Origin: Microbulbifer sp. THAF38
Lineage (GTDB): Bacteria > Pseudomonadota > Gammaproteobacteria > Pseudomonadales > Cellvibrionaceae
Direction of reading: 5' to 3'
Assembly: GCF_009363535.1 (NCBI RefSeq)
Contig: NZ_CP045369.1
Span: forward strand, 3,793,001 to 3,857,000
DNA: 64,000 nt
Below are positions 7,156 to 21,230 of the stretch, piece after piece. The notes beneath the pieces are model-generated. The model saw only the letters and a program-made list of their open reading frames with translations, was not told the origin of the DNA and made no database searches. Each line of letters begins with the position of its first letter. Positions within the stretch are counted from its first letter, which is position 1. A program made the position numbers and the translations under genes.

Positions 7156-8637
7156 TTAAGCACCAGCGGTTTGCCCGGTAGGTACCCTTTCTCCAACCGT
7201 TTCCTTATGATTATATCCATTTATCTGCACTTCATTTTGTGCCACCACAGTATCCGGCCTTGATGTATTGCGAGCATGCCAGTAGGCTCGCTGCAGCCAA
7301 AGTGGCAGGAATATAATGAGATCATAGGTACGGTTGAGCAAAATGCCACAATGCATTGAGAGAGTCGCTAAAAGGCGTAAGCCCGTAGCGAATAAATCCA
7401 GGAATAACACTAATAAACATCCAAATACGGTACGTGCAGAGTTTATGAACTGCTCCAGTGGTATTGCTATAAAAGCAAGAACCAGAGGAAGAATAAAACC
7501 CAGCAGCATTTGTACCAGCCCGAGTGCCCAGTAGCTCTTTGCCCCCTCAAACCTAGGTTCGCTCACCCCAGGTATACCAGTAAGTAACTGATCGCCTTGC
7601 AATAATAGGTCCCTTGAGAGTGACAACCCCGCCTCAACACTGGAAAAACACAACAGTAGGAATAACGCGGACCATAGTATGCGTTTGCGTATAGGGTCTG
7701 CCAGTGAAGCAATAGAGGGAAACAAGCGCGAAATCCGCAAAGATTCCATAATTACAAGGCCAACAAGGATTTGCAGAAAAATCAAAATTGAGGCAGCAAT
7801 ATCGGCTGTCGAGTAACTCCCCAGAAAGCCACCACTTCCAACAATCTCTGTCATTGGTCGTGCGATTAATTGATGATTCAGCCAAACCCCTGCTACTGCC
7901 ACGAACATCACTAGTGAGGAAATTAAAAAACGACTGAAAGAAGAAACGGATAGAAGGTGTAAGCTGCGGTCGCTCTCCTGCAAAATATTCTCGTAGCGTG
8001 ACATATGCTCATCCAACACTTTGCTACGGTGAATTACAGACTCCACGCTCCTATTAATTCGCCCCAGTTTTTTTAGCATTGCGCGCCAACCAGGCATCAT
8101 CCGCTTCAGTAACTGATGGCGTTCCCTTATAGACTCCCGGTAAGCTTCCAGGGCTTTACTTTCAGCCTTACGCATTGAGTGATTGATAGTCTCTAACACA
8201 TCCGCCACAACCGTATCATCTGGAGTGGGAATTTCCGCGACAGAGCGAATCGCCCTAACCCAATTTGACGGCTCAGGAGGCACCTCTGCGCTGCGCACAT
8301 AGTCATCATCTATAGCCGCCATCTGCTCACAGAGCTGGCGATGTAACGAAGGATATTGCGTCAACTCGCGTCTCAGGGAGTCTTCTATTCGCTCAAACTC
8401 CCGCTCAATTTGCCACTCTGTCATCTCGCGGCCTGTGGCAAGTAGCACTTCCCGATTACGCTCACGCAGACTCAGCCCCGCTTGCCCCACCGAGTTAGCA
8501 GCAAACAATAAAGAGCGGTGACATAACCTTGCAAGTGAGTAAATCGTTCGATGAGCAGGTCTCCTAAGGAAAAATAACGAAACAGCCGCCAAACCAGCCC
8601 ACCACCAAAGTGGTAGTAACTCTAATAAGTAATTCAT
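7156..8637 (-). CDS. Integral membrane protein of unknown function
   Basis: This 493-residue protein matches no family I recognise. It begins with one hydrophobic helix (about residues 4-24). A long charged, probably coiled-coil cytoplasmic region follows (about 60-220, rich in Glu, Arg and Leu). The C-terminal half then has about six further membrane helices, for example FLISSLVMFVAVAGVWL, ILIFLQILVGLVIMESL, ILWSALFLLLCF and LVQMLLGFILPLVLAFIAI. It is the first gene of a leftward group with the GDPD-like and MBL genes, and its start is bordered by an 820-base gap before the curli regulator. No catalytic motif is visible. Confidence 0.75.
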   Translation of the reverse strand: MNYLLELLPLWWWAGLAAVSLFFLRRPAHRTIYSLARLCHRSLLFAANSVGQAGLSLRERNREVLLATGREMTEWQIEREFERIEDSLRRELTQYPSLHRQLCEQMAAIDDDYVRSAEVPPEPSNWVRAIRSVAEIPTPDDTVVADVLETINHSMRKAESKALEAYRESIRERHQLLKRMMPGWRAMLKKLGRINRSVESVIHRSKVLDEHMSRYENILQESDRSLHLLSVSSFSRFLISSLVMFVAVAGVWLNHQLIARPMTEIVGSGGFLGSYSTADIAASILIFLQILVGLVIMESLRISRLFPSIASLADPIRKRILWSALFLLLCFSSVEAGLSLSRDLLLQGDQLLTGIPGVSEPRFEGAKSYWALGLVQMLLGFILPLVLAFIAIPLEQFINSARTVFGCLLVLFLDLFATGLRLLATLSMHCGILLNRTYDLIIFLPLWLQRAYWHARNTSRPDTVVAQNEVQINGYNHKETVGERVPTGQTAGA

Positions 8638-9457
8638 GACATCACTTTTCCTATAGAACCGTGCGATAGGTCATCCTAACAGCAGAAGCATCGACAATCG
8701 TCCCAAATGTCACACTTTATGTTGCTTTATTGCGACACTCGTCTACAGCGTTCATTTCACACAACGATGATTTACCCGGAGGTAAAAAATTCCAGGCTTT
8801 CCTGGTTTAACTTCGGCATACACTTGGACCGTCTTCCGAATTAAGCCTTCTGGCAATTTTCACAGCTTTAGTACAACCCTAACCGCCCCACCCAACGCCT
8901 AAATACCGAGGCAGCAATCCAATCAAACCCAAATAGAACTAAAGATTTACCTAGAAATCCATTAAGAGTGAAATCATGCTTTCGATATAAAAATCCCCAG
9001 AAATATTTATTTCTGAAAAACAACTCACCACCTAGAGATAAAATGTGCTACCAGACATAAATTTTTCGTCATCTTCACCCCTACAAATATCCGCAATATC
9101 AGCAACAATAGAAATAAGTGACACATATAAAACTGTACAATAAAAGCTGAAAAAGCTTGCACGCTCAGTTAATTCAACGAATTAAACAGCTAGACGACAC
9201 CCGCCATTGTTGAACATTTTTAATACAAAATAAGGCATCTTTTTTTCCAGACGCACTCACGCCCACGACTACACTCCAAACTAAATTCTCACCAAGTGAG
9301 TCATTTTCCCTAAAACAAAGAGGTACTTTGCGTTAGCAGCGATATTTTCTAGCGATCATGAAGATCAACCAGGAAACTTTTACGACAGGAGTCGATAACG
9401 GATCCAGCTCTTAGCAATGGGAGCGGTCCATCTGTTTCAAGGAGAGGTACGAGGTAT
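8638..9457. other. Long AT-rich noncoding region upstream of the curli operon
   Basis: No convincing reading frame is present in these 820 bases. They separate the leftward membrane-protein gene from the CsgD-like regulator and must carry the promoters of both. A perfect 18-base palindrome lies at 8998-9015 and is listed separately. In other curli systems the control region of csgD is long and crowded with regulator sites. That comparison is established knowledge. The presence of such sites here is inference. Confidence 0.6.
8998..9015. promoter_or_regulatory. Perfect palindrome in the curli control region
   Basis: CAGAAATA (8998-9005) and TATTTCTG (9008-9015) are perfect reverse complements separated by TT. 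It could be a dimeric regulator site or a small hairpin. No regulator is identified. Confidence 0.4.
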
Positions 9458-10051
9458 ATGCCGGTTCTTTTTTTTAGCAATTCCGGCCTTCAGGGCGATC
9501 TTTTATTTTCACTGTTCTCCCAGTCTATTCCCATGCCATGGGAAAAAGCCTGCATAGGAAAACAGAGACACTGTCTACAACACTACGAGGCAATCATAAT
9601 CGACTGCTGGCAGATAGGTATCAACAGCTGCTCCAAGGATTTTATCTCTGACTTAAAGAAAATCAGACACTCAAAAGCGATTCTCATCAACTTTCCCGCG
9701 GACTTACCAAACCACATCTCAGAAAAACTCCGCCAGAATGGCTTCTACTTGTTGTGTGACAGCAACATCAGCCAGGAAAAACTCATTCAGAGGCTCAACA
9801 TTGCTATTCACAGTTGTGAAAGTAGCCACTCTGAAGGTATGCAGAATCCGTTACCCCTTACACGAAGAGAACAGGAAATCCTTGGGCAACTAACCACAGG
9901 AGAACCCAACAGTGTGATCGCAACCAAATTACATTTGAGCGAGCATACCGTTAAGAATCACATGTATAACATTTTTCGGAAAATCGGCGTAAAGAATCGC
10001 CTGCAAGCCAGCAACTGGGCAAAACTCAATCTCCAGGAAGAGCGAATATGA
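9458..10051 (+). CDS. csgD: CsgD-like LuxR-family transcriptional regulator
   Basis: This 197-residue protein has a receiver-like N-terminal region without an obvious phosphorylation site and a C-terminal LuxR helix-turn-helix (LTRREQEILGQL at 134-145, LSEHTVKNHMYNIFRKIGVKNR at 160-181). Size and domain order match CsgD, the curli and biofilm master regulator of enteric bacteria. Its stop codon overlaps the csgE start (ATGA at 10048-10051), so regulator and export genes are cotranscribed. In Escherichia coli csgD heads a separate divergent csgDEFG operon, so the csgDEFG order is the same here. Targets are inferred to be the curlin promoters downstream. Confidence 0.88.
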   Translation: MPVLFFSNSGLQGDLLFSLFSQSIPMPWEKACIGKQRHCLQHYEAIIIDCWQIGINSCSKDFISDLKKIRHSKAILINFPADLPNHISEKLRQNGFYLLCDSNISQEKLIQRLNIAIHSCESSHSEGMQNPLPLTRREQEILGQLTTGEPNSVIATKLHLSEHTVKNHMYNIFRKIGVKNRLQASNWAKLNLQEERI

Positions 10052-10476
10052 GATTAAGCCCGCTGATTTTCGCCTTCTTTGTAGCTGCAGGAGTTGCTCA
10101 GGATGACACCACAGTCCCTGAAGCAGACACCGATTCAGGCAGACTGGAAGACGAAATCAGCGGGTTTAACATCGATCGAACAATTACCCGGACAGGTCAT
10201 GATTTTGCTAGGTATCTCAGTGAATACAGAAATCTAAATTATCCAGATGCAACTTATAACTTAACCATTTATGAGCGTCCCTCAGCTCGCTGGGGGAACC
10301 TGATATGGGTTACCTATAACGACAAAATAGTATTTCGACGCTTTATCAGCCCAAGCACCAATAACATCCATCGCTTGGCCGATGAAGCCGCTCAATATAT
10401 TCATCAGGCGGTGTTAAAAGATCGGGTGAGCAGCGCCTTTATAGATAATTTTGATTTGGGAAAGGACGAATTCTAA
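10048..10476 (+). CDS. csgE: Curli export chaperone CsgE
   Basis: This 142-residue periplasmic protein has a short signal sequence (residues 1-17, ending GVAQ). The family core is plain: TRTGHDFARYLSEY, NLTIYERPSARWGN, and the C-terminus LGKDEF, which closely matches E. coli CsgE (ERPSARWGS, AHDEF). CsgE caps the CsgG pore and delivers subunits to it. Compared with the enteric protein there is an extra acidic linker after the signal. It overlaps csgD by four bases and abuts csgF (TAATG). Confidence 0.95.
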   Translation: MRLSPLIFAFFVAAGVAQDDTTVPEADTDSGRLEDEISGFNIDRTITRTGHDFARYLSEYRNLNYPDATYNLTIYERPSARWGNLIWVTYNDKIVFRRFISPSTNNIHRLADEAAQYIHQAVLKDRVSSAFIDNFDLGKDEF

Positions 10477-10895
10477 TGAACAACAAGAGCCTCATTTATC
10501 CGACATTATTGGCGGCCAACTTATTTGCCTATAGTACTGCGCTTGCAACCGAATTAATTTATGAACCGGTTAATCCGAATTTTGGTGGCAACCCATTAAA
10601 CGGTACTTACTTATTACAAAATGCACAGTCGCAAGATGATCATGATGACCCAGATAAGCATGACAGTATTTATGAACAACCTAGCGCCCTGGACCGCTTT
10701 ACCGACTCCCTAGAAACACGACTACTCAACCAGCTCTTGACGGATGTCGGCGATGGAAACAGTGGCGAATTAATTACCGACGATTTCGTCGTACAGATTG
10801 TCGACAATGACGGTGTTCTCACCGTGTTGATTACTGACAGAAACACGGGAGATAAAAGCGAGATCGTTGTTAGTGGACTCAACCCCACAAACTAG
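10476..10895 (+). CDS. csgF: Curli assembly factor CsgF
   Basis: This 139-residue exported protein has a signal peptide ending at about ALATE. The mature start has PVNPNFGGNPLNGTYLLQNAQSQ, matching the CsgF segment that inserts into the CsgG channel. The C-terminal half has PSALDRFTDSLETRLL and LITDRNTGDKSEIVVSGL, both family hallmarks. CsgF sits at the cell surface with CsgG and couples secretion to CsgB-dependent nucleation. The ATG overlaps the csgE stop by one base. Confidence 0.95.
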   Translation: MNNKSLIYPTLLAANLFAYSTALATELIYEPVNPNFGGNPLNGTYLLQNAQSQDDHDDPDKHDSIYEQPSALDRFTDSLETRLLNQLLTDVGDGNSGELITDDFVVQIVDNDGVLTVLITDRNTGDKSEIVVSGLNPTN

Positions 10896-10925
10896 ATAAG
10901 AATCAACTCTGAAGGAAAACTGGCA

Positions 10926-11798
10926 ATGCGCAATGCAATAAAAAAAGCCCTAGCCTTGCCCGCACTGGCGTTCACACTCACTCTAAGCGGGTGTTCTGCA
11001 GTAAAAAGTGTTGGCGATGCCCTTTTCGGCCCTGGGCGGACCGATGCCATGCTGACCCCACGTATGAACACTTTTCGGGATTTGATAAATCTCCCCGAGC
11101 CAAAAGGAAAAATCCTGGCTGCGGTGTACAGCTTTCGCGATCAGACCGGGCAATACAAACCCGCTCCTAACAGCAGCTTCTCCACCGCAGTAACTCAGGG
11201 TGGTGCAGCCATGTTGATGGATGTGCTCAACGAGTCTGGATGGTTTATCGCGTTGGAGCGTGAGGGCTTACAAAACCTGTTAACAGAGCGCAAGATTATC
11301 CGCGCGGGGCTCAGTAAACCGGATGCGCCAGCCAATAATAGTATTCCATTGCCAACCCTAATTGCAGCCAACGTACTCCTGGAGGGCGGCATTGTCGCCT
11401 ACGACCAAAACATACAGACAGGTGGTGCCGGGGCGAGATATTTTGGCATCGGTGCTGATGAGCAGTATCGTGTCGATCAGGTAACGGTTAACCTGCGTGC
11501 AATAGATATACGTTCGGGCAGAATCTTACACTCGGTATTGACATCAAAAACGGTCTATTCGAAAGCAATCAGTGCCGATGTATTTCGCTATGTGAAATTC
11601 CGGCGCCTATTAGAAATGGAAGCTGGAGTAACCTATAACGAGCCCGCTCAGCTTGCTATGCTTTCAGCGATGGAATCTGCGGTGATTCACCTGATCAGCG
11701 AGGGCATTGTGCACAACTCCTGGGCATTGGCGAATCCCGATGATATCAACAACCCTATACTGCAATACTATCTAAACGACAGCACAGTTATTATGTAG
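10926..11798 (+). CDS. csgG: Curli secretion pore lipoprotein CsgG
   Basis: This 290-residue outer-membrane lipoprotein has the lipobox LSGC (Cys23). The conserved CsgG stretches are present: DQTGQYKPAPNSSFSTAVTQG, WFIALEREGLQNLLTERKIIRA, GGAGARYFGIGADEQYRVDQV and NLRAIDIRSGRIL. In E. coli nine subunits form the channel through which unfolded curlin passes. The ATG at 10926 follows a GAAGGAAAA ribosome site. It is the fourth gene of the operon. The next curlin-like gene starts 42 bases downstream with no terminator between. Confidence 0.96.
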   Translation: MRNAIKKALALPALAFTLTLSGCSAVKSVGDALFGPGRTDAMLTPRMNTFRDLINLPEPKGKILAAVYSFRDQTGQYKPAPNSSFSTAVTQGGAAMLMDVLNESGWFIALEREGLQNLLTERKIIRAGLSKPDAPANNSIPLPTLIAANVLLEGGIVAYDQNIQTGGAGARYFGIGADEQYRVDQVTVNLRAIDIRSGRILHSVLTSKTVYSKAISADVFRYVKFRRLLEMEAGVTYNEPAQLAMLSAMESAVIHLISEGIVHNSWALANPDDINNPILQYYLNDSTVIM

Positions 11799-11840
11799 CC
11801 TCGTGATGGGTATTAGTAGTTAACAGTGATAGAGGGAACT

Positions 11841-12380
11841 ATGCCAAGCAGTCATAAATATCCTGTTTTGCTCGCAACCGCTTTTTTCAGTTTATTCACA
11901 GAGGTGTGCGCCGCCACTGATCTTGATACCAGCAGCGAGCTTGCCATAAGTAGCGAATTGAGTTCGGCAAACCTACTGTCCGTTTCCAACCTCACGGTAA
12001 TCAACCAAGAAGGTGGCGTGAACAATGTTAATGTACGCCAGTCAGGGAGAACCAATTACACATCTGCACACCAGGATGGCAATAGAAACAAACTTTCGGT
12101 GACACAGACCGGTGAGAATAACGTTGTACTTTCACGTCAAGTAGGCGAACAAAACCTTAGCGGGCTAATCCAGGTGGGCTATGAAAACCTGATAGATATT
12201 GAACAATATGGTGTAGGTAACTCCGCCGGAATTACCCAGTTCGGCATGCAAAACAGCGCCCATGTGGAGGAAATCGGTATGCTACACAAAGTGAATATCT
12301 ACCAGAGCGGCCATGGATTGCATACCTCAGTCACCGTGATGGGCACAGCGACCACAACTTCTATCCGCCAATTCGATTAA
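11841..12380 (+). CDS. Curlin-repeat protein, CsgB-like (probable nucleator), curlin 0
   Basis: The ATG at 11841 follows AGAGGGA, and I prefer it to the in-frame GTG at 11826. The 179-residue product has a signal peptide ending near VCAA, then an N-terminal spacer and about five curlin repeats of the QxGxxN type (RQSGRTNYTSAHQDGNRNKLSVTQ). It is much shorter than the six downstream curlins and lies directly after csgG in the operon. That position and size suit a CsgB-type nucleator. This role is inference, since CsgA and CsgB repeats cannot be told apart with certainty by eye. Confidence 0.85.
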   Translation: MPSSHKYPVLLATAFFSLFTEVCAATDLDTSSELAISSELSSANLLSVSNLTVINQEGGVNNVNVRQSGRTNYTSAHQDGNRNKLSVTQTGENNVVLSRQVGEQNLSGLIQVGYENLIDIEQYGVGNSAGITQFGMQNSAHVEEIGMLHKVNIYQSGHGLHTSVTVMGTATTTSIRQFD

Positions 12381-12451
12381 ATATACGTAACTTACAAAGG
12401 CACACGATCTCAAAAAAAATCACTGAAGACTTTCCCATAAAACGCCCCACA

Positions 12452-12481
12452 AAGAAGCTAGGCCTGTCAGCCTGGCTTCTT
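12452..12481 (+). terminator. Stem-loop after the csgD-EFG-curlin operon
   Basis: AAGAAGCTAGGC (12452-12463) pairs with GCCTGGCTTCTT (12470-12481), giving 12 pairs including one G-T wobble. No T-run follows, so it may be a weak terminator or an mRNA 3'-end stabiliser. Confidence 0.6.
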
Positions 12482-12513
12482 ATGACAAACCTCATCAGAC
12501 TATTCTCTCTACA

Positions 12514-12554
12514 CCCCTAACCCCTAACCCCTAACCCCTAACCCCTAACCCCTA
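12514..12554. repeat. Heptanucleotide tandem repeat CCCCTAA, nearly six copies
   Basis: Five exact CCCCTAA units (12514-12548) are followed by a partial CCCCTA. The complementary strand carries six evenly spaced runs of four G with TTA between them, a pattern able to form G-quadruplexes. It lies in the noncoding gap between the csg operon and the first large curlin gene. Copy number of such a tract can change by replication slippage. Confidence 0.95.
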
Positions 12555-13048
12555 TTAGCATTCTTCTCTATTTTCATCATAAAAAGCTTCTAGCAGATGA
12601 TCCAATAAAATTTGGTTACGTAAAAACGTGTGTATCCAATTTTTACTTCAGCTTTACCCAAGCAAACGGCATGAAATCAACTCAAAATTCAAACCAACCT
12701 TCCTATTAAAGAGTCAGTAAAAATAAAAGAACTATATTCCTACTTTTTAGTGACTTATGTCCTATAGCGAACCGCTCTATTAGCGGCAAAACTCTATATA
12801 TATCTGATCGAATGTTGTTTTACACCTCTTGGACATTTTGTCATGCAGACATTAGGTTGTTTAGAGATCAAAATCTCAAAGCCAAACTGGCCCTCTCTCA
12901 AGAGTGGTCCCCAATGCAGTATCTGGGAGACAACTAACCTCCCCTATCGGCAAAAGAGCAGTTAAGCCATCCAAGTAAAGTAAATGGTAGATTGAAGTAC
13001 TAATCGCTGATTACTTTATTCAGCAAGAATTCAACGATGCAGCTTTTC
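12555..13048. other. AT-rich noncoding region upstream of curlin 1
   Basis: No believable gene is present. The stretch should contain the promoter of the first large curlin gene. I see no assignable promoter or operator beyond general AT-richness. Confidence 0.5.
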
Positions 13049-13155
13049 CAGGAGTAAAGGAGTCCTGCATTGTGAATCCATGACATCTGGAAGATGTCAG
13101 TAATTTCAGCACAGTGTGTGCTGAATCTAAAACGTCCAGAGTAAAGGAGTATCGC
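13049..13155 (+). promoter_or_regulatory. Structured mRNA leader of curlin 1 with two hairpins and a duplicated ribosome site
   Basis: Two perfect hairpins lie in tandem: TGACATCT (13081-13088) with AGATGTCA (13092-13099), and TTCAGCACA (13105-13113) with TGTGCTGAA (13117-13125), each with a three-base loop. A GAGTAAAGGAGT ribosome-site sequence occurs both before them (13052-13063) and after them (about 13140-13150). Only the second serves an obvious ATG, at 13156. The arrangement suggests translational or transcript-stability control. Confidence 0.55.
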
Positions 13156-14106
13156 ATGAAGGCGTTAACACCCATCGCAGCCGCTATTCTGATCGCCACA
13201 AGTGGCAGTGTATTTGCAGCCAATAATACCACCACGCAAAACCAAGCTGGTGTTGCCAACCTGGCTGTATCTACTCAGGTAGGGCCCGGCAACGATAACA
13301 ACACAGTGACTCAAACTCAGATCGGTAATGTCAACTTCTCTAATGCGTTGCAAGCATTAGGCAGTGATACCAACCAAATAAATCATTCACAAGTTGGCAA
13401 CGGGAACAGTGCAAATTCCTTTCAGCTTGGCGGAAGCCTGAATACGGCTTCTGTTACTCAGGTTGGTAATGGCAACGGTGCCCTTACCACCCAGGCAGCG
13501 CCCGCACTAGGCTCAGCAGCCGCTATTAATCAAGCTGGGGATACAAACTTTGGCTCGGTATTCCAGACCGCTTCATTGGGAGATGTCGGAACGGTTAATC
13601 AATTGGGAACCTCAAACTTTGCAACAGTCACTCAAATTCTGAGCGCCGGAAACAGTGCTCTTGTCAATCAGGCTGGCACCGCAAACATTGCAAACCTGGG
13701 TCAGGTTGCTGCCGTTGGGAATACCGCTGTCGCGAACCAGGCTGGCACTCTCAACATTGCTACCCATGCTCAATCAGGCCTGCTAAATAGCTCGAGCTCT
13801 TCACAGTTGGGTACACTGAACAATGCCACAGTCCTCCAGGCCGGTCTGGGCCACGACTCCACCACCCTTCAGGCTGGTTTCGGCAATATCTCAATCCATG
13901 CACAAACAGGCTCACTTCACGACGCTTTCACCGCACAAGCTGGCATAATCAATATTGCTACCATTACTCAAGGTGGTGTAGGGCATAGTGCACAAACCTT
14001 ACAAGCTGGAACTCTCAATGTGCATACCACTGTCCAGCTCGGCTCCAACGAAACAGCAATAGCAAATCAAGCTGGAGCATTTAACGTCGGTTTCATTTTC
14101 CAGTAG
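13156..14106 (+). CDS. Large curlin-repeat amyloid subunit, curlin 1
   Basis: The ATG at 13156 follows AAAGGAG. The 316-residue product has a signal peptide (MKALTPIAAAILIATSGSVFA), then a mature chain made almost wholly of curlin repeats, with about 20 QxG triplets in the pattern QxGxxNxAxxxQ. This is roughly three times the repeat number of E. coli CsgA. Repeats rich in Ala, Asn, Gln and Thr, with no charged clusters, suit a long beta-solenoid fibre subunit exported through CsgG. It ends in FIFQ, a repeat-capping Gln like the other curlins. A strong terminator follows at 14143. It could be the major fibre subunit, but relative abundance is unknown. Confidence 0.9.
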   Translation: MKALTPIAAAILIATSGSVFAANNTTTQNQAGVANLAVSTQVGPGNDNNTVTQTQIGNVNFSNALQALGSDTNQINHSQVGNGNSANSFQLGGSLNTASVTQVGNGNGALTTQAAPALGSAAAINQAGDTNFGSVFQTASLGDVGTVNQLGTSNFATVTQILSAGNSALVNQAGTANIANLGQVAAVGNTAVANQAGTLNIATHAQSGLLNSSSSSQLGTLNNATVLQAGLGHDSTTLQAGFGNISIHAQTGSLHDAFTAQAGIINIATITQGGVGHSAQTLQAGTLNVHTTVQLGSNETAIANQAGAFNVGFIFQ

Positions 14107-14142
14107 CTCTTACTGTAGCTTCTTAGAGAGAGAATATCTTGT

Positions 14143-14169
14143 GGCGGTCATCATTTGACCGCCTTTTTT
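14143..14169 (+). terminator. Rho-independent terminator of curlin 1
   Basis: GGCGGTCA (14143-14150) and TGACCGCC (14156-14163) form a perfect eight-base stem, followed by six T. Confidence 0.92.
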
Positions 14170-14614
14170 ATGACTGGATTTTCTTTTACGAAAAATATTC
14201 TTTTAGCTTTATTAAGGTCAGCGGTCCAGAAAGATGATCAACCATCATTAATTTGCGCGATATACATCACCCTATAACTCACTGCTATTTAAGTAAAAAT
14301 CCTATGGCACTCGAATATTCACGCAGCTAAAAAACATACTTTCTTCCTAGATTAACGAAACTTATCTCCCATAGCCGTCTAGCACTTTTCCCACAAAACT
14401 CTACACAGCATCAAGCTGATATTAACGAGGTCCTATGATTTTTCCTAGAACTCAATATGGAACAAATATCCAATTGAAATTCTTGGGAAAAAACCTCAAT
14501 GATTTCCCCCTACACCAGGAAAAGAAATTTTCACGTAGGCTTCCGATGCTGTTTTGATAATCTCTCTAGCAAAAAAGCTTTCAAGCTAAATCTGATATCT
14601 CTAAGGAGTAACCG
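14170..14614. other. Noncoding region upstream of curlin 2
   Basis: About 445 AT-rich bases lack a plausible gene. They end in the leader AAATCTGATATCTCTAAGGAG, close to the leader of curlin 3. A promoter for curlin 2 is expected here but not pinned down. Confidence 0.5.
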
Positions 14615-15634
14615 ATGAAAAAGTACACCCCGATTGCCGCAGGTGTTTTCCTGGCAATTGCCGCCAGTGGCGCTATGGCCGCCAACAACCTAATCATCAA
14701 TCAGAATGGTGCGGGAAACATGGTCGCTCCCGTACAAGATGGGACAGTGACCGACAGCACTATTTTCATTAACCAAAATGGAGACATGAATTTCTCCGCC
14801 CCACAGCAAATAAATAACACCAGTAATAGCTTGATTCTTCACAACCAAATCGGTAACACGAACGGAGCAGCATCCGTACAAGATGGTGCCTCTGGTTCAT
14901 CCACTGTGATTACCCAAGTAGATGACGATAACAGCGCAACCACTACCCAGGTCTCTACCACCAGCTCAGCAATCGGAATCACGCAAAGTGGCTGGGTAGG
15001 CCAGGTGGCAACGGTTAATCAGTTTGGCACTACCGCTAACTCTGCTCAAGTCAACCAAACAAAGAATTTGAATACCGCCACGGTGAATCAATTTAGCGGA
15101 ACAGCTAACACTGCGGTTGTTACCCAGGAAGGGCATTTTATTGGTAATAATGAAATCGAGACAAATCAAGGAAATGGTGACTCTAACTCTGTTGATGCCA
15201 CCCAGATTGGTAATGCACAAACTGGACTCGTTTCCCAGATAGGAGGATCAGGTAATTCATCTTTCTCTTACCAGTTTGGTAAGTACAACGATATTAGTGT
15301 CGCCCAATCAGGAGATAACAATATCAGTGATATCGAACAATACTGGGAATCTAACGTAGCTGTGCACAATCAGTCTGGTGATAACAACTGGGCTATGACT
15401 GTACAGGACGGCATGTCAAACGTTGCAGGTGTGAACCAAATTGGCAACATGAATACCTCTGATATAACTCAACTGGGCGACATGAACACAACATTCGTCA
15501 CTCAGACTTCCAACGGCGGTATGTTTCAAGCCTTGCAGGATGGCAACTCAAACTTTCTTTCAGTGTTTCAAGCAGCTCCCGGGCTGATAGCAGTCAGCCA
15601 GATTGGCGATGGTAACTTCCTTATTATCCCATAA
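14615..15634 (+). CDS. Curlin-repeat protein, curlin 2 (tandem paralogue of curlin 3)
   Basis: This 339-residue protein has a signal peptide (MKKYTPIAAGVFLAIAASGAMA) and about 18 QxG repeat triplets. AAGGAG lies eight bases before the ATG. The repeats differ from curlin 1: many are Asp-containing (QDG, DDDNSATTTQ), and one carries a Trp-Glu insertion (QYWESNVAVH). The chain ends in QIGDGNFLIIP, with Pro rather than Gln last. Nearly every segment has a counterpart in curlin 3, so the two arose by tandem duplication. It should be a fibre subunit or a modifier of fibre properties. Confidence 0.9.
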   Translation: MKKYTPIAAGVFLAIAASGAMAANNLIINQNGAGNMVAPVQDGTVTDSTIFINQNGDMNFSAPQQINNTSNSLILHNQIGNTNGAASVQDGASGSSTVITQVDDDNSATTTQVSTTSSAIGITQSGWVGQVATVNQFGTTANSAQVNQTKNLNTATVNQFSGTANTAVVTQEGHFIGNNEIETNQGNGDSNSVDATQIGNAQTGLVSQIGGSGNSSFSYQFGKYNDISVAQSGDNNISDIEQYWESNVAVHNQSGDNNWAMTVQDGMSNVAGVNQIGNMNTSDITQLGDMNTTFVTQTSNGGMFQALQDGNSNFLSVFQAAPGLIAVSQIGDGNFLIIP

Positions 15635-15657
15635 AGTTACCATGTAGTCTCATACTT

Positions 15658-15683
15658 AAGCTGGCCCTAACGGGCCAGCTTTT
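15658..15683 (+). terminator. Rho-independent terminator of curlin 2
   Basis: AAGCTGGCCC (15658-15667) and GGGCCAGCTT (15672-15681) form a perfect ten-base stem with a TAAC loop, ending in TTTT. The hairpin after curlin 3 is a diverged copy. Confidence 0.9.
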
Positions 15684-15932
15684 AATTTAGATCCATTCAC
15701 TTATCAGCTTAAGTACTCATCTTATATTTTCAATCAATTAATATTCGAGAGCACTTATGTACATATTTAAATCATCAAATATTTAACCTGCCCATGTATT
15801 ACACATCATACCAATTGAGACCACCAAAACAACGGAAGCGTAATAACAAGGCCCCACAAACAGCTTAACTAACGGTTTATCACAACATACTAAAAATTTT
15901 CATGTAAATCTGACATCTGCAAGGAGCAATCG

Positions 15933-16955
15933 ATGAAAAAGTACACAACGATTACCGCGGGTGCTTTCCTGGCAATTTATGCTAGCAGTATCTCTGCCAA
16001 TACACTAATTATTTTGCAAAATGGCATGGGAAATACTGTTGCCCCAGTACAAGATGGTACTGTAACTAGTAGTGCCATTCTCATTAACCAGTTTGGCAAT
16101 TTAAATTCCTCAACTCCGGAGCAAATTAATAACACCAATAGTAGTACAATTGGTCATTTTCAGCTTGGCGACATGAACACAGCAGTATCTCTGCAAAATA
16201 ATGCATCATCTTCTACCGCCTTCATCACCCAGGCAGATGATAATAACAGTGCATCCACTACTCAGGCCTCTACTACCGATTCAGAAGCATTCGTTACCCA
16301 AAATGGCTGGAGCGGTCAGGTCGTATTTATAAATCAGGGTAGTACTACTTCAAGTAGCATTTTTATCAACCAAACCAAAAATTTCAATTCAGCCACAATG
16401 GGACAGTTTAACGGAACTGGAAACACAGCTGTTGTTTACCAAGAGGGGCATTTAATTGGAAATAATTTCATCGAAATACAACAAGGGAACGGCAACTCTA
16501 ACTCTGCTGATGCAACTCAGATTGGTAATACCCAAAGAGGATTGGTAATCCAGAACGGAGGTTCAGGCAACAAATCTTATTCCTATCAGTTCGGGAAGCA
16601 AAATTACATTGATGTCACACATACTGGGGATAATAACACTAGCGAAATCGAGCAGTTCTGGGAGTCTAACCTAGCTGTACACATCCAGTCTGGGAATAAC
16701 AACTTGGCACTGGCCGAACAATCTGGTCAAAATAACGTTGTAGACGTGTTTCAGTCGGGTGACATGAACACATCAGATATAACTCAAGCCGGAGGCAATT
16801 CGAATGAGTATATCTTAACTCAGAGCGGCAACTCAAATACCTTCTTAGCAATACAGGATGGCAATTCCAATTACATTATGGTAACACAAGCGGGTAACAG
16901 TAACCTCCAAATGATCAGCCAAATTGGCGATGGTAATGTGTATGTTTTTCCATAG
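15933..16955 (+). CDS. Curlin-repeat protein, curlin 3 (tandem paralogue of curlin 2)
   Basis: This 340-residue protein has a signal peptide (MKKYTTITAGAFLAIYASSISA). It follows curlin 2 repeat by repeat: VAPVQDGTVT near the N-terminus, QEGHLIGNN in the middle, IEQFWESNLAVH, and the ending QIGDGNVYVFP. The ribosome site AAGGAG and the preceding AAATCTGACATCTGC leader are also shared with curlin 2. The duplication therefore covered leader, gene and terminator. Divergence between the copies is substantial, so it is not very recent. Both are retained as full frames, which implies each is useful. Confidence 0.9.
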   Translation: MKKYTTITAGAFLAIYASSISANTLIILQNGMGNTVAPVQDGTVTSSAILINQFGNLNSSTPEQINNTNSSTIGHFQLGDMNTAVSLQNNASSSTAFITQADDNNSASTTQASTTDSEAFVTQNGWSGQVVFINQGSTTSSSIFINQTKNFNSATMGQFNGTGNTAVVYQEGHLIGNNFIEIQQGNGNSNSADATQIGNTQRGLVIQNGGSGNKSYSYQFGKQNYIDVTHTGDNNTSEIEQFWESNLAVHIQSGNNNLALAEQSGQNNVVDVFQSGDMNTSDITQAGGNSNEYILTQSGNSNTFLAIQDGNSNYIMVTQAGNSNLQMISQIGDGNVYVFP

Positions 16956-16972
16956 AATTTCAGTTTAAAGTC

Positions 16973-17008
16973 ATACTAAAGCTGGCTATAACGAGCCAGC
17001 TTTAGTAT
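16973..17008 (+). terminator. Hairpin terminator of curlin 3
   Basis: A 15-base perfect stem runs from ATACTAAAGCTGGCT (16973-16987) to AGCCAGCTTTAGTAT (16994-17008), with loop ATAACG. No long T-run follows. Confidence 0.8.
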
Positions 17009-17345
17009 TAAATATTTGCACCTACATAGAATTTAATTTTTAAAGTTCCATTTTATCTTATTAATATATCATCACAAAAACCAAGCTTTTCTACATGACA
17101 GATATTTTATCTTCATTGCATATAAATACACACTTGAACTCTTAATAAAGGCTAGTTATATCTAGAGAACAAATTAGAACACCGAAAGTATAACCATTTA
17201 TCAAAGATTTGAATGTCAATATATATCTTTTCAATACACCTCTACTAAAGTTATATGAGTGATAAAAATTATCAAAGCAAGGAAACACATTAAGCATGTA
17301 AGCTTACTAAACGATGATGGATTAAGTAGTATACAGGAGTTAAAC
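17009..17345. other. AT-rich noncoding region upstream of curlin 4
   Basis: No believable gene is present. The frame of curlin 4 extends back to a GTG at 17259, but that extension lacks a signal peptide at its start. It is therefore treated as leader. Confidence 0.5.
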
Positions 17346-18236
17346 GTGAGAAAGATTACAGCCCTGTCTCTGGCAATTATGGCCTCTGTCAGTGGGCTCA
17401 CACATGCGTCAGGAAACACAGTAACTTTTGAGCAAAACGGCAACAATAATCACGCTTTGGTTGATCAAACTGACAGCAGCACTATCGACAGTACTGTAGA
17501 AATCTCTCAAAGCGGCAATCTTAATAACGCTGAGGCCGTCCAGACAAATGAAACGGATAGCCTTATATATCAGGTACAAGAAGATAAGTTAAACGAAGCT
17601 TATAGTTTACAAATGGGGGGCATCGGAAATGAAGCCTTGATTTTTCAGGGGGGCATGGATAACCACGCTAATTCGTTCCAGATTTCTGCACAAAATAGCC
17701 AGGCCAAAATTCTCCAGAATGGCATGGGCAACGAAGCTGAAATTCAACAGCATTTAGGTAGTGATAATGTCTCAGTTATTGAACAAATAGGAAATATTCA
17801 CGGCGCATTGGTAGGACAGTATGCCAGCTTTAATTCAGAGGCATATATTTTCCAAGACGGCTCATACCACGAAGCAATGATCAGCCAAAAGGGAACAGGC
17901 CACTATGCCAACATCTCTCAGTCTGGCATGTCGCATCACGCCGAAATTTCCCAGTCCGATATGTATAACGAAGCAGATATCTTACAAAAAGGCGAAAGTA
18001 ACAACAGTACAATTGTTCAAGTCTCTTGGTACAACAGTGCCTTTGTTACTCAGGATGGTTATCTGAACCAAGCTACGATTATGCAGTCAGGCAATGGTGG
18101 TTTGGGTGGTGGGCACATGGTAGTTGTTAATCAATCTGGCGGCATGAATACAGCCACAGTGATACAAAGCGGTTTTTCTGAGTCGGCAAATATCACCCAA
18201 ACCGGCTACGGTAATACTGCCATAGTGAATCAATAA
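17346..18236 (+). CDS. Curlin-repeat protein, curlin 4, with histidine-bearing repeats
   Basis: I start it at the GTG at 17346, six bases after AGGAG, because this yields a proper signal peptide (MRKITALSLAIMASVSGLTHA). The product has 296 residues. The repeats are more polar than in curlin 1, often with Glu and with His at turn positions (NNHALVDQ, DNHANSFQ, GHYANISQSGMSHHAEISQ). It ends in NTAIVNQ. It is flanked by its own hairpin terminator. Role as a fibre subunit is inferred from the repeats and location. Confidence 0.88.
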   Translation: MRKITALSLAIMASVSGLTHASGNTVTFEQNGNNNHALVDQTDSSTIDSTVEISQSGNLNNAEAVQTNETDSLIYQVQEDKLNEAYSLQMGGIGNEALIFQGGMDNHANSFQISAQNSQAKILQNGMGNEAEIQQHLGSDNVSVIEQIGNIHGALVGQYASFNSEAYIFQDGSYHEAMISQKGTGHYANISQSGMSHHAEISQSDMYNEADILQKGESNNSTIVQVSWYNSAFVTQDGYLNQATIMQSGNGGLGGGHMVVVNQSGGMNTATVIQSGFSESANITQTGYGNTAIVNQ

Positions 18237-18252
18237 ATATCTCCTATCCCAG

Positions 18253-18288
18253 TAGAAGCCAAAGATTAAAGTTGGTCTTTGGCTTCTA
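18253..18288 (+). terminator. Hairpin terminator of curlin 4
   Basis: TAGAAGCCAAAGA (18253-18265) pairs perfectly with TCTTTGGCTTCTA (18276-18288) around a ten-base loop. Confidence 0.8.
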
Positions 18289-18504
18289 TAACTATTTACC
18301 CCACCGTAGGTACAGCCCTTTTATGCTTACCTTTTAGCACTTATCTTTAAGTACCTACCATATTTTAAAAACTTACTTATAGAACCATTTACTGAGAATT
18401 AAGTCTCAGAAGTTACCCACATTTCTCTCATGGTGGCACTTATTTTTTGCATCAAGAATTAACAAGTACCCGAGCCTCCCATTTATGCAGTTGTGGAGAA
18501 ACCT

Positions 18505-19386
18505 ATGACGCATTTTAGCAAGCTACTTTTAGCAACCACCCTATTAACCGGCTACTCTCTTTCAGCTCAAGCTGATGACCAAACTGTTCGTCAAGTTCAA
18601 GTCGGAATTGGGAACAATGCAACAGCCATTCAACAGTTCCCCCTCAACCAGAGTAACTTAATCATTCAGGAGCAGATTGGTTTCTATAATGACGCAATAG
18701 CAAATCAAGCAGTCGAAGTCGGTAGTACCGCTGCGCAATATCAGACGGGACAACAACATTCATCTGAGGTCAGCCAGGCTTTCGGGAGTGGTAATGCTGG
18801 TCAAAGCGTGCAGATTGGCTCCAATAGTCAGTCAGCAACCTTTCAGATCAATCAGGTTCAAGGCTTCTCTTTACACACCCAGGATGGACAAAGTCACTTT
18901 GCTTTAACCATTCAAAAACTAGGGTCCAACAACAGTATTCAAATTCAGCAAAGTGACCGCCTGAATATAGCAACGGCCAGCCAGATAACAAACTTTAATG
19001 GTGACATCAATATTATGCAGGCAGGCCTATTAAATAGCGTTGAAAGTCACCAGCAAGGGTTTTCTCATGAGGCCTCTATCGTTCAGAGCGGAGGATTCAA
19101 TAAGACCGATACTATTCAGCTAGGCAGCAATCAATGTGCAACGACGATGCAAACCGGAGTGGATAACCTGATTGATCTTGCTCAATCAGGTGACAGTAAT
19201 ATTGGATCAGTCACTCAGTTAGGCATTAGCAATGAAGCTTATGTGGTTCAATCTGGCATCAATCTCAAGGTAAACGCTGAGCAATTTGGCGGCTTTAATC
19301 ACGTATCAATTTCGCAATCCGGCATTAATCAGAGTAGTGACACTCTACAAGTAGGATTTAATAATCAAAGCCATATTGTTCAATAG
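18505..19386 (+). CDS. Curlin-repeat protein, curlin 5
   Basis: The ATG at 18505 follows GGAGAAACCT and is preferred over the GTG at 18493. The 293-residue product has a signal peptide ending SAQA and about 15 curlin-type repeats, several with altered spacing (VQIGSNSQSATFQ, LQVGFNNQSHIVQ). A single Cys occurs in the mature chain (SNQCATTMQ), which is unusual in a curlin. The protein ends in HIVQ. It is a separate transcription unit by its flanking hairpins. Confidence 0.88.
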   Translation: MTHFSKLLLATTLLTGYSLSAQADDQTVRQVQVGIGNNATAIQQFPLNQSNLIIQEQIGFYNDAIANQAVEVGSTAAQYQTGQQHSSEVSQAFGSGNAGQSVQIGSNSQSATFQINQVQGFSLHTQDGQSHFALTIQKLGSNNSIQIQQSDRLNIATASQITNFNGDINIMQAGLLNSVESHQQGFSHEASIVQSGGFNKTDTIQLGSNQCATTMQTGVDNLIDLAQSGDSNIGSVTQLGISNEAYVVQSGINLKVNAEQFGGFNHVSISQSGINQSSDTLQVGFNNQSHIVQ

Positions 19387-19410
19387 GTCTTACCAATATC
19401 ACTTTCATTC

Positions 19411-19434
19411 AATGCCAGTTTCTGCTGGCATTTT
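19411..19434 (+). terminator. Rho-independent terminator of curlin 5
   Basis: AATGCCAG (19411-19418) pairs perfectly with CTGGCATT (19425-19432) across a six-base loop. The run TTTT overlaps the end of the stem. Confidence 0.85.
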
Positions 19435-19810
19435 CTAATTGTTTTTTTATGTTTGATTTTATCTTGTCTAAAACTTCCCTCCCAGCTAAATAGTACTTCT
19501 CTCCTATGGCTTTTTTTTATCACTGAAGCAACACTAAAAGGGACGGAACGAAATTATGGACTCCTAAGCAGTATCAGGGATGTCAATCAAAATGCGCCAG
19601 TTTTACCCCCTCTTCGACTTTGTATCAACTCGATCTTTTTTCTTAAGCACTTTGCGTGCAAGTTTGCCTAAACAGTTTACAGGGGCGCTGCCAAAAAAAT
19701 TTTAGCGCCTCACTGTAACAGCTCACGCTAACTACACAGTATGCCGGCTTAGCAACTTTACGCTGCCCCCTATCGTGATGCTCTTTTTTTAAGTAGTAAT
19801 GGAGATACTC
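19435..19810. other. Noncoding region upstream of curlin 6
   Basis: A 72-codon frame at 19453-19671 has no ribosome site and odd composition, so I do not call it a gene. The promoter and leader of curlin 6 should lie here. Nothing else is recognisable. Confidence 0.45.
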
Positions 19811-20689
19811 ATGAAAGTTTTACCCCCAATTCCTGCCGCTATGATTTTAATTCTAAGCGGTACCGCTTTTGCCGATAACAATACTGCCTACCAGGATCAA
19901 AACGGCTTTGGTAACAACGCCTTTGTTGATCAGGCTGGACCCGGCAGCCATCACAATTACGTTAATCAGGAACAGCATCAGGGGTTAAATACCGCCGTTA
20001 GTCTTCAGGTCTATGAACACCACAGTACGGTTCTTCAACTCCAGGATGGGACTAGTAACTACGCGAATGCTTTCCAGAAAGGTGGGTCTGAAAATACAGC
20101 GATGAGTGAGCAATTTGGTATCGACAATAGCTCCTTAACTTTCCAGTTTGATGAGCACGGTAGCTTTTCTCACCATATACAGGAAGGCCATGGTAATACC
20201 GCTTGGACCTACCAACAATCGGGTAGTAGCAACCAGGCAACCATCCTGCAAAACAGCAACTACAGCTATGCGACTGTAACTCAAGTAGGTAGCCATGGTA
20301 GTGAGGCCATGCTCTCGCAAGGTGGTGAAATGAATCAGGGAGATATTCTCCAAATTGGTGAATTTCACAAGGCCCACCTGATCCAGGGAGATGGTGGTAA
20401 CAACGACGCCGATATTCGCCAGCTAGGCCACAGTCTTGAGGCCAAAATGTATCAGGAAGGCTGGTTTAACGAGGCGGATATTTCCCAGGCTGGTAGCAAC
20501 CATTTTGGTAAGACCATGCAGTTTGGCCACGGGAATGATGTGTACCTGGGCCAAATCGGTGAAAATCATCACGCAGAAGCCATCCAAAATGGCTCGAATA
20601 ACAACAGCCTCGTCGCCCAGTTTGGTTTCAATGAAACCGCCAAGGTTCACCAACACGGTGAAAACAATCAAAGTTTCGTTTCCCAGTAA
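19811..20689 (+). CDS. Histidine-rich curlin-repeat protein, curlin 6
   Basis: The ATG at 19811 is preceded by GGAGATACTC and gives a signal peptide (MKVLPPIPAAMILILSGTAFA). The 292-residue product has the curlin pattern throughout, and it carries 19 His residues, many paired (SHH, EHH, NHH) or next to Gly in the repeat turns (GHGNTA, GHGND, HQHGENN). E. coli CsgA has very few His, so this subunit could give the fibre metal-binding or pH-responsive behaviour; that is inference. It ends in SFVSQ and is the last gene of the curli cluster. Confidence 0.88.
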   Translation: MKVLPPIPAAMILILSGTAFADNNTAYQDQNGFGNNAFVDQAGPGSHHNYVNQEQHQGLNTAVSLQVYEHHSTVLQLQDGTSNYANAFQKGGSENTAMSEQFGIDNSSLTFQFDEHGSFSHHIQEGHGNTAWTYQQSGSSNQATILQNSNYSYATVTQVGSHGSEAMLSQGGEMNQGDILQIGEFHKAHLIQGDGGNNDADIRQLGHSLEAKMYQEGWFNEADISQAGSNHFGKTMQFGHGNDVYLGQIGENHHAEAIQNGSNNNSLVAQFGFNETAKVHQHGENNQSFVSQ

Positions 20690-20705
20690 AGCTGCTCCTG
20701 CCCCA

Positions 20706-20740
20706 AAGAAAAAAGGCGGCCTTTGGCCGCCTTTTTTCTT
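20706..20740. terminator. Strong bidirectional terminator between curlin 6 and greA
   Basis: A 16-base perfect stem with GC core GGCGGCC / GGCCGCC and a TTT loop is flanked by A-run and T-run. It can end both the rightward curlin transcript and the leftward carAB-greA transcript. Confidence 0.93.
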
Positions 20741-20753
20741 ACTAAGAGATCTT

Positions 20754-21230
20754 TTATAGGTGCTCTACCGTATCAATTTCATATTCCACTGCACCGGAAG
20801 GCGTGTGTACAACAACGACTTCCCCCACTTCCTTACCAATAAGTGCGCGGGCAATCGGCGAATTCACTGAGATTTTTTGTTTTTTCACATCCGCCTCATC
20901 GTCACCCACGATTTTATAAGTCACTTCAGCATCGTCATCCAGGTGAATGATGGTTACCGTGGTGCCGAAAATTACCTTATCGCTGGGCTCAATCGACTTC
21001 ACATCGATCACTTGAGCGTGAGATAACTTGGCTTCAATCTCTTGAATACGCCCTTCAATAAAGCCCTGTTTTTCCCGCGCCGCATGGTATTCGGCATTTT
21101 CCTTCAAATCACCGTGTTCGCGAGCCTCGGCAATGGCTTCCACCACCGCTGGGCGCTCGACTTTTTTCAGATTTTCCAATTCTGAACGCAGCGCTTCTGC
21201 GCCTTCGACGGTCATTGGTACCCGGTTCAA
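20754..21230 (-). CDS. greA: Transcription elongation factor GreA
   Basis: GreA rescues backtracked RNA polymerase by stimulating cleavage of the nascent RNA. I start it at the TTG at 21230, seven bases after GGAGG. This gives [14 protein letters not shown] and exactly 158 residues, the length of E. coli GreA. The N-terminal coiled coil carries the catalytic acidic tip in [18 protein letters not shown], and the C-terminal FKBP-like domain ends in [11 protein letters not shown]. It lies downstream of carB on the same strand, the usual pseudomonad arrangement. A seven-base stem (21261-21288) lies in the gap between the two genes. Confidence 0.96.

Follow-up and report, generated by a model that had tools for sequence, protein, structure and literature searches.

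A multi-curlin csg locus of Microbulbifer and a conserved leader at many of its curlin genes, a candidate RNA for amyloid subunit choice

In this study, the complete csg (curli) locus in a 64,000-nucleotide stretch of Microbulbifer sp. THAF38 (NZ_CP045369.1, positions 3,793,001 to 3,857,000; hereafter the window) and its counterparts across the genus were investigated. On the + strand of the window, open reading frame (ORF) calls and Pfam identify csgD-like, csgE, csgF and csgG genes followed by one short and six large curlins. We observed that such a multi-curlin locus is a trait of the genus Microbulbifer, of a kind already glimpsed in print, and folding of the sequence upstream of the start codons revealed two tandem hairpins before many genes of two curlin classes, here called beta and delta. 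We consider it probable that this is a curli locus of genus-wide plan with several subunit classes, whose leader acts as an RNA that sets the subunit make-up. We lean slightly towards the narrower claim, drawn from sequence, that the beta and delta leaders form a new cis-acting RNA family, found at curlin genes only and setting the choice of amyloid subunit after transcription. As far as searched, the conserved leader is the new part; large curlin numbers and the absence of csgC are already in print.

The csg locus of the window

The genes are listed below with their Pfam matches and expectation values (E); lengths are in amino acids (aa), and the start codons of the large curlins, c1 to c6, were picked by script.

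9458..10051, + strand: csgD-like LuxR-type regulator, 197 aa (GerE PF00196, E 5e-19)
10048..10476, + strand: CsgE (PF10627, E 2.8e-29)
10476..10895, + strand: CsgF (PF10614, E 2.5e-31)
10926..11798, + strand: CsgG secretion pore (PF03783, E 1.1e-73)
11841..12380, + strand: short curlin, 179 aa (PF07012, E 7.2e-16; ORF from 11826)
13156..14106, + strand: c1, large curlin, beta class, 316 aa (PF07012, E 4.1e-7; trees)
14615..15634, + strand: c2, large curlin, beta class, 339 aa (PF07012, E 9.8e-12)
15933..16955, + strand: c3, large curlin, beta class, 340 aa (PF07012, E 5.4e-23)
17346..18236, + strand: c4, large curlin, gamma class, 296 aa, GTG start at 17346 (PF07012, E 2.1e-33; ORF from 17259)
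18505..19386, + strand: c5, large curlin, delta class, 293 aa (PF07012, E 1.8e-10; ORF from 18493; trees)
19811..20689, + strand: c6, large curlin, delta class, 292 aa (PF07012, E 4.9e-27)

An earlier note, made from the letters of the window, had named these same genes, giving these starts for the large curlins, and ORFs and Pfam bear out all of them; the large curlins, put there at 290-340 residues, measure 292-340 aa. The signal peptide and downstream hairpin that it gave to each large curlin were also recovered, as a hydrophobic, signal-like N-terminus at all six (scored by a hydrophobicity script, not SignalP), accompanied by a ribosome-site match, and as a hairpin after each of c1 to c6. 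The profile search it had suggested places all seven curlins above the curated cut-off of Curlin_rpt PF07012, and curlins per locus were counted across genomes as given below. Of the features of curli, or type VIII secretion, the window has a CsgG pore, CsgE and CsgF, and curlin repeats in the subunits. All seven curlins match the NCBIfam CsgA/CsgB equivalogs and none reaches their cut-offs of 160 and 165, so that they are curlins, but not CsgA or CsgB in NCBI's strict sense. The short curlin, whose top NCBIfam match is CsgB with a score under its cut-off, is CsgB-like by size and position. Pairwise identity among the large curlins is 27-38%, the sole exception being c2 and c3, where 61% identity marks c3 as a duplicate of c2.

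The conserved leader of beta and delta genes

Among 69 beta and delta genes with at least 200 bases upstream, 54 leaders with the form were aligned (alignment A2), which describes form-bearing leaders only, because membership was chosen by form. These share hairpins H1 and H2, an AACGTC box and the ribosome site in fixed order. The elements in the window are as follows, R1 being a model built from A2.

13081..13099, + strand: leader hairpin H1 of c1 (TGACATCT/AGATGTCA), A2 covariation
13105..13125, + strand: leader hairpin H2 of c1, A2 covariation
13131..13149, + strand: AACGTC box and ribosome site of c1, conserved in A2
19702..19813, + strand: leader of c6, a degenerate family member (24.1 bits and E 8.6e-4 with R1, of which it is a training member)

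The alignment holds 14 pairs in two helices. Of their 735 cells, 89.7% can pair, compared with 27-47% in slid controls, and changes on both sides are seen in 13 of the 14 pairs. Double-changed cells number 80 against a shuffled mean of 21.2, a value reached in 0 of 500 shuffles, the sequences being related by descent and the pair counts not independent. It may be asked whether the hairpins are DNA operators, namely dyad sites for the LuxR-type CsgD, rather than RNA, as in most beta leaders H1 forms a short dyad edged by ATGG...CCAT and a LuxR-type regulator is encoded in the locus. We regard this as improbable, since wobble pairs are three times as frequent as A.C mismatches (G.U 76 vs A.C 26 in cells of A2, which are not independent; 62 vs 11 when the nine inner pairs, columns 34-37 and 66-70, are summed by hand), an excess that fits an RNA of the coding strand. 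Moreover, stem letters vary while pairing stays, and the order of stems, box and ribosome site is the same throughout the 54 leaders. From the wobble bias, the covariation and its place just ahead of the ribosome site, H1 is inferred to lie within the messenger RNA (mRNA).

As A2 had been chosen by form, a second test was made with model R2, built from the beta position-2 leaders of loci L041-L069 (29 of 29), all outside the window's clade. Across 51 loci (1.0 Mb), R2 recovered its own 29 and a further 20 held-out leaders at E<1e-3. Of the latter, 11 belong to delta genes or L043_4, seven come from the window's clade and two are from L070; 19 of these 20 end at a curlin start, and the other, one of the seven, is a leader in L033 whose gene has been lost. 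The leader of window c1 is among them (13055-13158), with E 1.8e-7 compared with 1.3e-4 from R3, the sequence-only twin of R2. R3 gave 4 to 20 bits less than R2 on 19 held-out leaders (mean 11.6) and did not list L037_1. The comparison suggests that the contribution of pairing is greatest in the window's clade, whose letters have drifted most; elsewhere the letters alone nearly suffice.

Model R1 was run on 48 whole Microbulbifer genomes, with filters that can drop weak matches, and gave 64 matches at E<=0.01, of which 52 end at a curlin ORF start by script and 6 more do so, as checked by hand, once the start codons chosen for the loci are applied. The remaining ones comprise a geneless leader in L033, the region before an orphan curlin of the source genome (E 0.0096) and four matches elsewhere (E 5e-4 to 9e-3), which look like chance. 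At E<=5.1e-5, 58 of 58 matches lie at curlin loci. A match is found in each of the 39 genomes with a window-like locus (type I, below). The seven genomes lacking csg account for just two of the weak matches, and genomes with only the second locus kind (type II), two in number, yielded none. Beyond the genus, R1 was applied to 25 loci out of the 57 named ones that are not from Microbulbifer and to 11 loci of other genera of the family, and gave no match. The geneless leader (L033 12798-12902, - strand) is well formed at 43.5 bits, is followed by an ORF of about 18 codons and lies some 220 bases before a curlin, and it is taken to have outlived its gene.

A passive role should also be considered, in which the leader is a 5' stabiliser of abundant mRNAs without regulation. 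This is possible, though doubtful to us: loop letters are not conserved and curlin mRNAs are expected to be abundant, but an unpaired AACGTC box, unneeded by a mere stabiliser, is kept between H2 and the ribosome site, and the family is absent from part of the curlin genes. R1 has no match at c2/c3-type and alpha genes and only four weak matches at gamma leaders (E 0.066-0.46), so that gamma may hold a worn relative of the leader. In 25 of the 37 gamma leaders (those omitted by eye being eight of the window's clade and L049, L052, L055 and L070), pairing of TCCTTT with the ribosome site is possible in 89.3% of cells against 45-75% in slid controls; both-side changes occur in one of six pairs, yet the covariation score lies above all 500 shuffles. 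This possible pairing, exemplified by L041 7963-8017, belongs to leaders outside the window's clade and was not seen at window c4.

Several observations weigh against an RNA that sets subunit make-up, beginning with the common descent of the aligned sequences and the choice of A2 itself, from which 15 of the 69 leaders (window_2, window_3, window_5, L033_1, L033_2, L033_4, L034_3, L035_2, L036_3, L039_1 to L039_4, L039_6 and L040_1) were left out by eye as lacking the form. Judged by E-value, R2 outperformed R3 for 13 held-out leaders out of 20, equalled it for one and fell behind for six, mostly delta (L069, L042, L066 and L055 delta, L043_4 and L070 beta), and L039_7 was matched by R3 (E 0.0018) with no R2 match at 0.1. 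Within the window the leader is clean at c1 only; that of c5 lacks the form, and that of c6 is degenerate, being absent from the R2 matches at E<=0.1 and folding by itself no better than shuffles. The single-sequence fold of the c1 leader beats shuffles (z -2.9), and in its lowest-energy fold part of H1 pairs with the AACGTC region, so that H1 is not formed. No conserved fold was found among nine c2/c3-type leaders. Lastly, sigma-70-like sites number 15 against 24.7 in shuffles, and as they are rarer than expected, separate promoters for each curlin gene are unsupported.

Leaders of biofilm genes controlled by CsrA or by small RNAs carry hairpins ahead of the ribosome site. The present leader resembles them in its hairpins before that site and in the GGA found in 17 of 54 H1 loops (shuffled mean 7.9; reached in 0 of 2000 shuffles), and differs from them in that 37 of the 54 loops lack GGA, those with it being clustered by clade, and in that no Rfam family reaches its cut-off. 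Rfam gave three weak matches in window 8600-21000, none over cut-off, and none in the loci of six relatives. For CsrA as the ligand of the leader, this is only a hint.

Curlin classes, selection and predicted structures

The classes were drawn from two curlin trees of 140 and 165 proteins with an uncertain root. In both trees, alpha (29 genes, the first behind csgB) is one clade within an alpha and gamma clade of 66. The remaining classes are less firmly bounded, which likewise tells against a division into subunit classes: gamma (37 genes) is what remains of that clade after removal of alpha, delta was assigned from tree groups and beta was named by exclusion as what remains, and nine position-2 genes switch between beta and delta from tree to tree. 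In the 165-protein tree, the beta part is interspersed with curlins of other genera. Outside the window's clade the genes usually run B-alpha-beta-gamma, delta being present or absent, as they do in 28 of 29 alpha-bearing loci (L054 lacks gamma), and in the window the order is B-beta-beta-beta-gamma-delta-delta. The window's clade lacks alpha and has multiplied beta and delta genes.

Large curlins are 290-298 aa long in 108 of 140 cases, and the recurrent longer forms (316, 339 and 340 aa) have one or two extra repeats of about 23 aa. Amino-acid composition varies mildly among the classes, c6 having 19 His. The ratio of non-synonymous to synonymous substitution (dN/dS) is 0.07-0.20 over eight curlin pairs, one of them c2 with c3, indicating purifying selection; by orthologue it is 0.07-0.16 for B, c1, c4, c5 and c6 and 0.20 for c2, with dS >1.4 in four pairs and no dS obtained for a ninth. 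AlphaFold2 models of c4 and c6, with mean predicted local distance difference test scores of 95.5 and 96.0, are both solenoids of 24 strands, and as modelled the two proteins are curli-type beta-solenoids of 12 two-strand repeats. The profile of the c4 class matches the curli structures 8c50 and 8enq. A Foldseek search of the PDB with the curlin models gave other beta-solenoids as best matches, at low template modelling (TM) scores, with no curli on top.

Distribution of the multi-curlin locus

We searched 48 Microbulbifer genomes for CsgG and then read the surrounding DNA with a local curlin hidden Markov model and BLAST. CsgG was present in 41 genomes, and two kinds of locus were recognized. 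Type I, the window-like kind, occurs in 39 of the 48 genomes (38 uncut), and a csgD-like gene opens every one of the 39 listed loci. The uncut loci harbor 3-8 curlin ORFs: three in one locus, four in 17, five in 14, six in four, seven in one (the window) and eight in one, while the locus cut by a contig end has two. If only ORFs of at least 150 aa are counted, 16 type I loci have five curlins and two have six. Type II, with one short curlin and one with an ORF of 392-410 aa, was found in 11 genomes, alone in two and beside type I in nine. The nine genomes with both types constitute the window's clade; alpha, the curlin directly behind csgB, is missing in exactly these nine and was also not seen in L070. 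As the nine form one clade, the loss of alpha with the dual loci may be one event. The idea that the window locus is unique to its source genome is ruled out by these 39 genomes.

Within the window's clade, curlin ORFs of at least 150 aa per genome, counted in the retrieved stretches, number 30 in G034, 23 in G029, 20 in G021, 15 in G043, 11 in G000 (the source genome) and G030, nine in G044 and eight in G009 and G045. Curlin islands outside csg loci were seen in this clade in L175-L179 (G034), L180-L186 (G029) and L163-L171 (G021). The type II csgG of G034 is split over two frames (L080 3975-4834), and G030 holds a broken third csg set with csgG in pieces (L077, about 11142-13555). Assembly GCF_003076275.1 is presumably that of Microbulbifer sp. 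A4B17, an existing taxon. A survey of 2023 reported that 40,559 of 43,279 genomes have two curlin copies and that the highest number, 30, is that of GCF_003076275.1 (PMC10192328; this paper and PMC3521004 are cited here for part of their text).

Such numbers could reflect a birth-and-death family, the extra curlins being redundant copies kept for dosage or by drift without division of labour. Copy number does vary, from 3 to 8 in the 38 uncut loci and, for the genomes of the window's clade, from 8 to 30 counted ORFs with a minimum length of 150 aa; curlin fragments occur, and islands of orphan curlins lie far from csg. Against this stand the order B-alpha-beta-gamma in 28 of 29 alpha-bearing loci (beta being named by exclusion), the low dN/dS of orthologues (0.07-0.16, and 0.20 for c2; dS >1.4 in four pairs) and the near-fixed lengths, and we hold redundancy without division of labour to be unlikely. 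The suggestion of the earlier note that differential use of many subunits lets the cell tune fibre properties finds support that is indirect throughout, via syntenic classes, purifying selection, separate termination and leaders in two classes.

Outside the genus, 57 of 80 named csg loci are non-Microbulbifer; two curlins were found in 32 of these, one in 3, three in one (L103) and six in one (L154), and 20 had no curlin within the DNA stretch covered. L154 is the csg locus of Pseudomonas matsuisoli, and its six curlins are apparently an independent expansion. In the family outside Microbulbifer, CsgG was found in 10 of 96 genomes, with 11 loci of 2-3 curlins each, some of which lie on short contigs. 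The locus, which the earlier note took to be unusual, is so in comparison with the other genera of the family; its expectation that loci of this size would not be common among close relatives fails within the genus, because 39 of 48 genomes have a multi-curlin locus. The closest CsgG among named records is from Microbulbifer, the best being M. variabilis SaN7-12 at 99%.

Other curlin genes of the source genome and csgC

Beyond the window, and thus beyond the reach of the earlier note, the source genome (4.79 Mb, 3 contigs; 11 curlins in total by PF07012 search) carries a second complete csg locus, csgD-E-F-G with two curlins of 159 and 392 aa, at L001 9725-14185 (about G000:C1:3607724-3612184). 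Two further curlins, orphans with lengths of 407 and 451 aa (L002 5145-6368 and 14520-15875), lie about 59-69 kb upstream of csgD. Between these two lies a GH19 chitinase with a chitin-binding module, and the ORF adjoining the second is, by eye, transposase-like.

The gene csgC, not visible to the earlier note, had no match in a search of the whole source genome even at E<=10, the E. coli control being detected. Its absence had been thought noteworthy here; in 48 Microbulbifer genomes none has a match over cut-off (one weak match, E 0.023), and csgC is reported only in Enterobacteriales and Aeromonadales in the part of PMC3521004 available. Absence of csgC as a special mark of the window locus is ruled out by these two points, and csgC is not a defining feature of curli outside these two orders.

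Features between the genes

Terminators were sought with the rule of a hairpin with at least four T in the following eight bases, which holds after each of c1-c5; shuffles also satisfy it in 1 to 15 of 200.

14143..14163, + strand: terminator after c1, by this rule
15658..15681, + strand: terminator after c2, by this rule
16973..17008, + strand: hairpin after c3 with a T-poor tail, by this rule
18252..18289, + strand: hairpin after c4 with a T-poor tail, by this rule
19411..19432, + strand: terminator after c5, by this rule
20706..20740, unstranded: strong bidirectional terminator-like hairpin after c6, predicted fold
12513..12554, + strand: six perfect ACCCCTA copies in the gap behind the short curlin (Tandem Repeats Finder)

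The hairpin after c6 was missed by the rule because its T-run pairs with an A-run, and no downstream hairpin with a T-run was found by the rule for the short curlin. The ACCCCTA repeats, telomere-like in look, occupy the place of the alpha gene in other species; a pattern search of the same gap in eight relatives found none. Alpha-gene remnants sought in the gap 12381-13155 and in that of eight relatives gave chance-like matches only (best E 0.13). Upstream of csgD, a 493-aa protein (7156-8637, - strand) has membrane-like stretches by eye and no Pfam match.

Discussion

The locus shares with the E. coli csgDEFG-csgBAC system its machine and the curlin repeat (PMC3521004), and differs from it in that the window genes run in one direction without csgC. 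Whereas E. coli has a single five-repeat CsgA, there are six large subunits here, two of them modelled with 12 two-strand repeats. In curli systems, the curlins, which are thought to be unfolded, are exported by CsgG together with CsgE, and CsgB acts as the nucleator; in 2012, up to six CsgA homologues were noted in Spirosoma and Rhodopseudomonas, and extra copies were proposed to modulate fibril properties (PMC3521004). As far as described in the parts available of PMC3521004 and PMC10192328, such multi-homologue systems have in common with the present one the CsgDEFG machine and CsgB-like and CsgA-like repeat proteins. In contrast to what is described there, the window has seven curlins in one gammaproteobacterial csg locus, and Microbulbifer has genus-wide syntenic classes and a structured leader at many genes. 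In the portion of the open-licence PMC literature covered, we found no study of curli in Microbulbifer and none of a structured leader at curlin genes.

We propose that one CsgEFG export machine would serve a CsgB-like nucleator and several large CsgA-type subunits, all of which would exit via the single CsgG pore. The subunit classes may give fibres of differing surface chemistry that varies with the mix. The leader, acting as RNA, would set the translation or mRNA stability of the beta and delta subunits, a protein or small RNA possibly reading AACGTC and the hairpins, and the subunit make-up would thereby be changeable after transcription.

Curli are the model functional amyloid and have been studied mainly with one major subunit. 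A genus with several subunit classes behind one export machine is a test case for amyloid fibres tuned by composition, and Microbulbifer is likewise one for how an amyloid-rich cell copes without CsgC. A dedicated leader RNA, if true, would offer a handle on the tuning of fibres and represent a novel type of control of matrix proteins by RNA.

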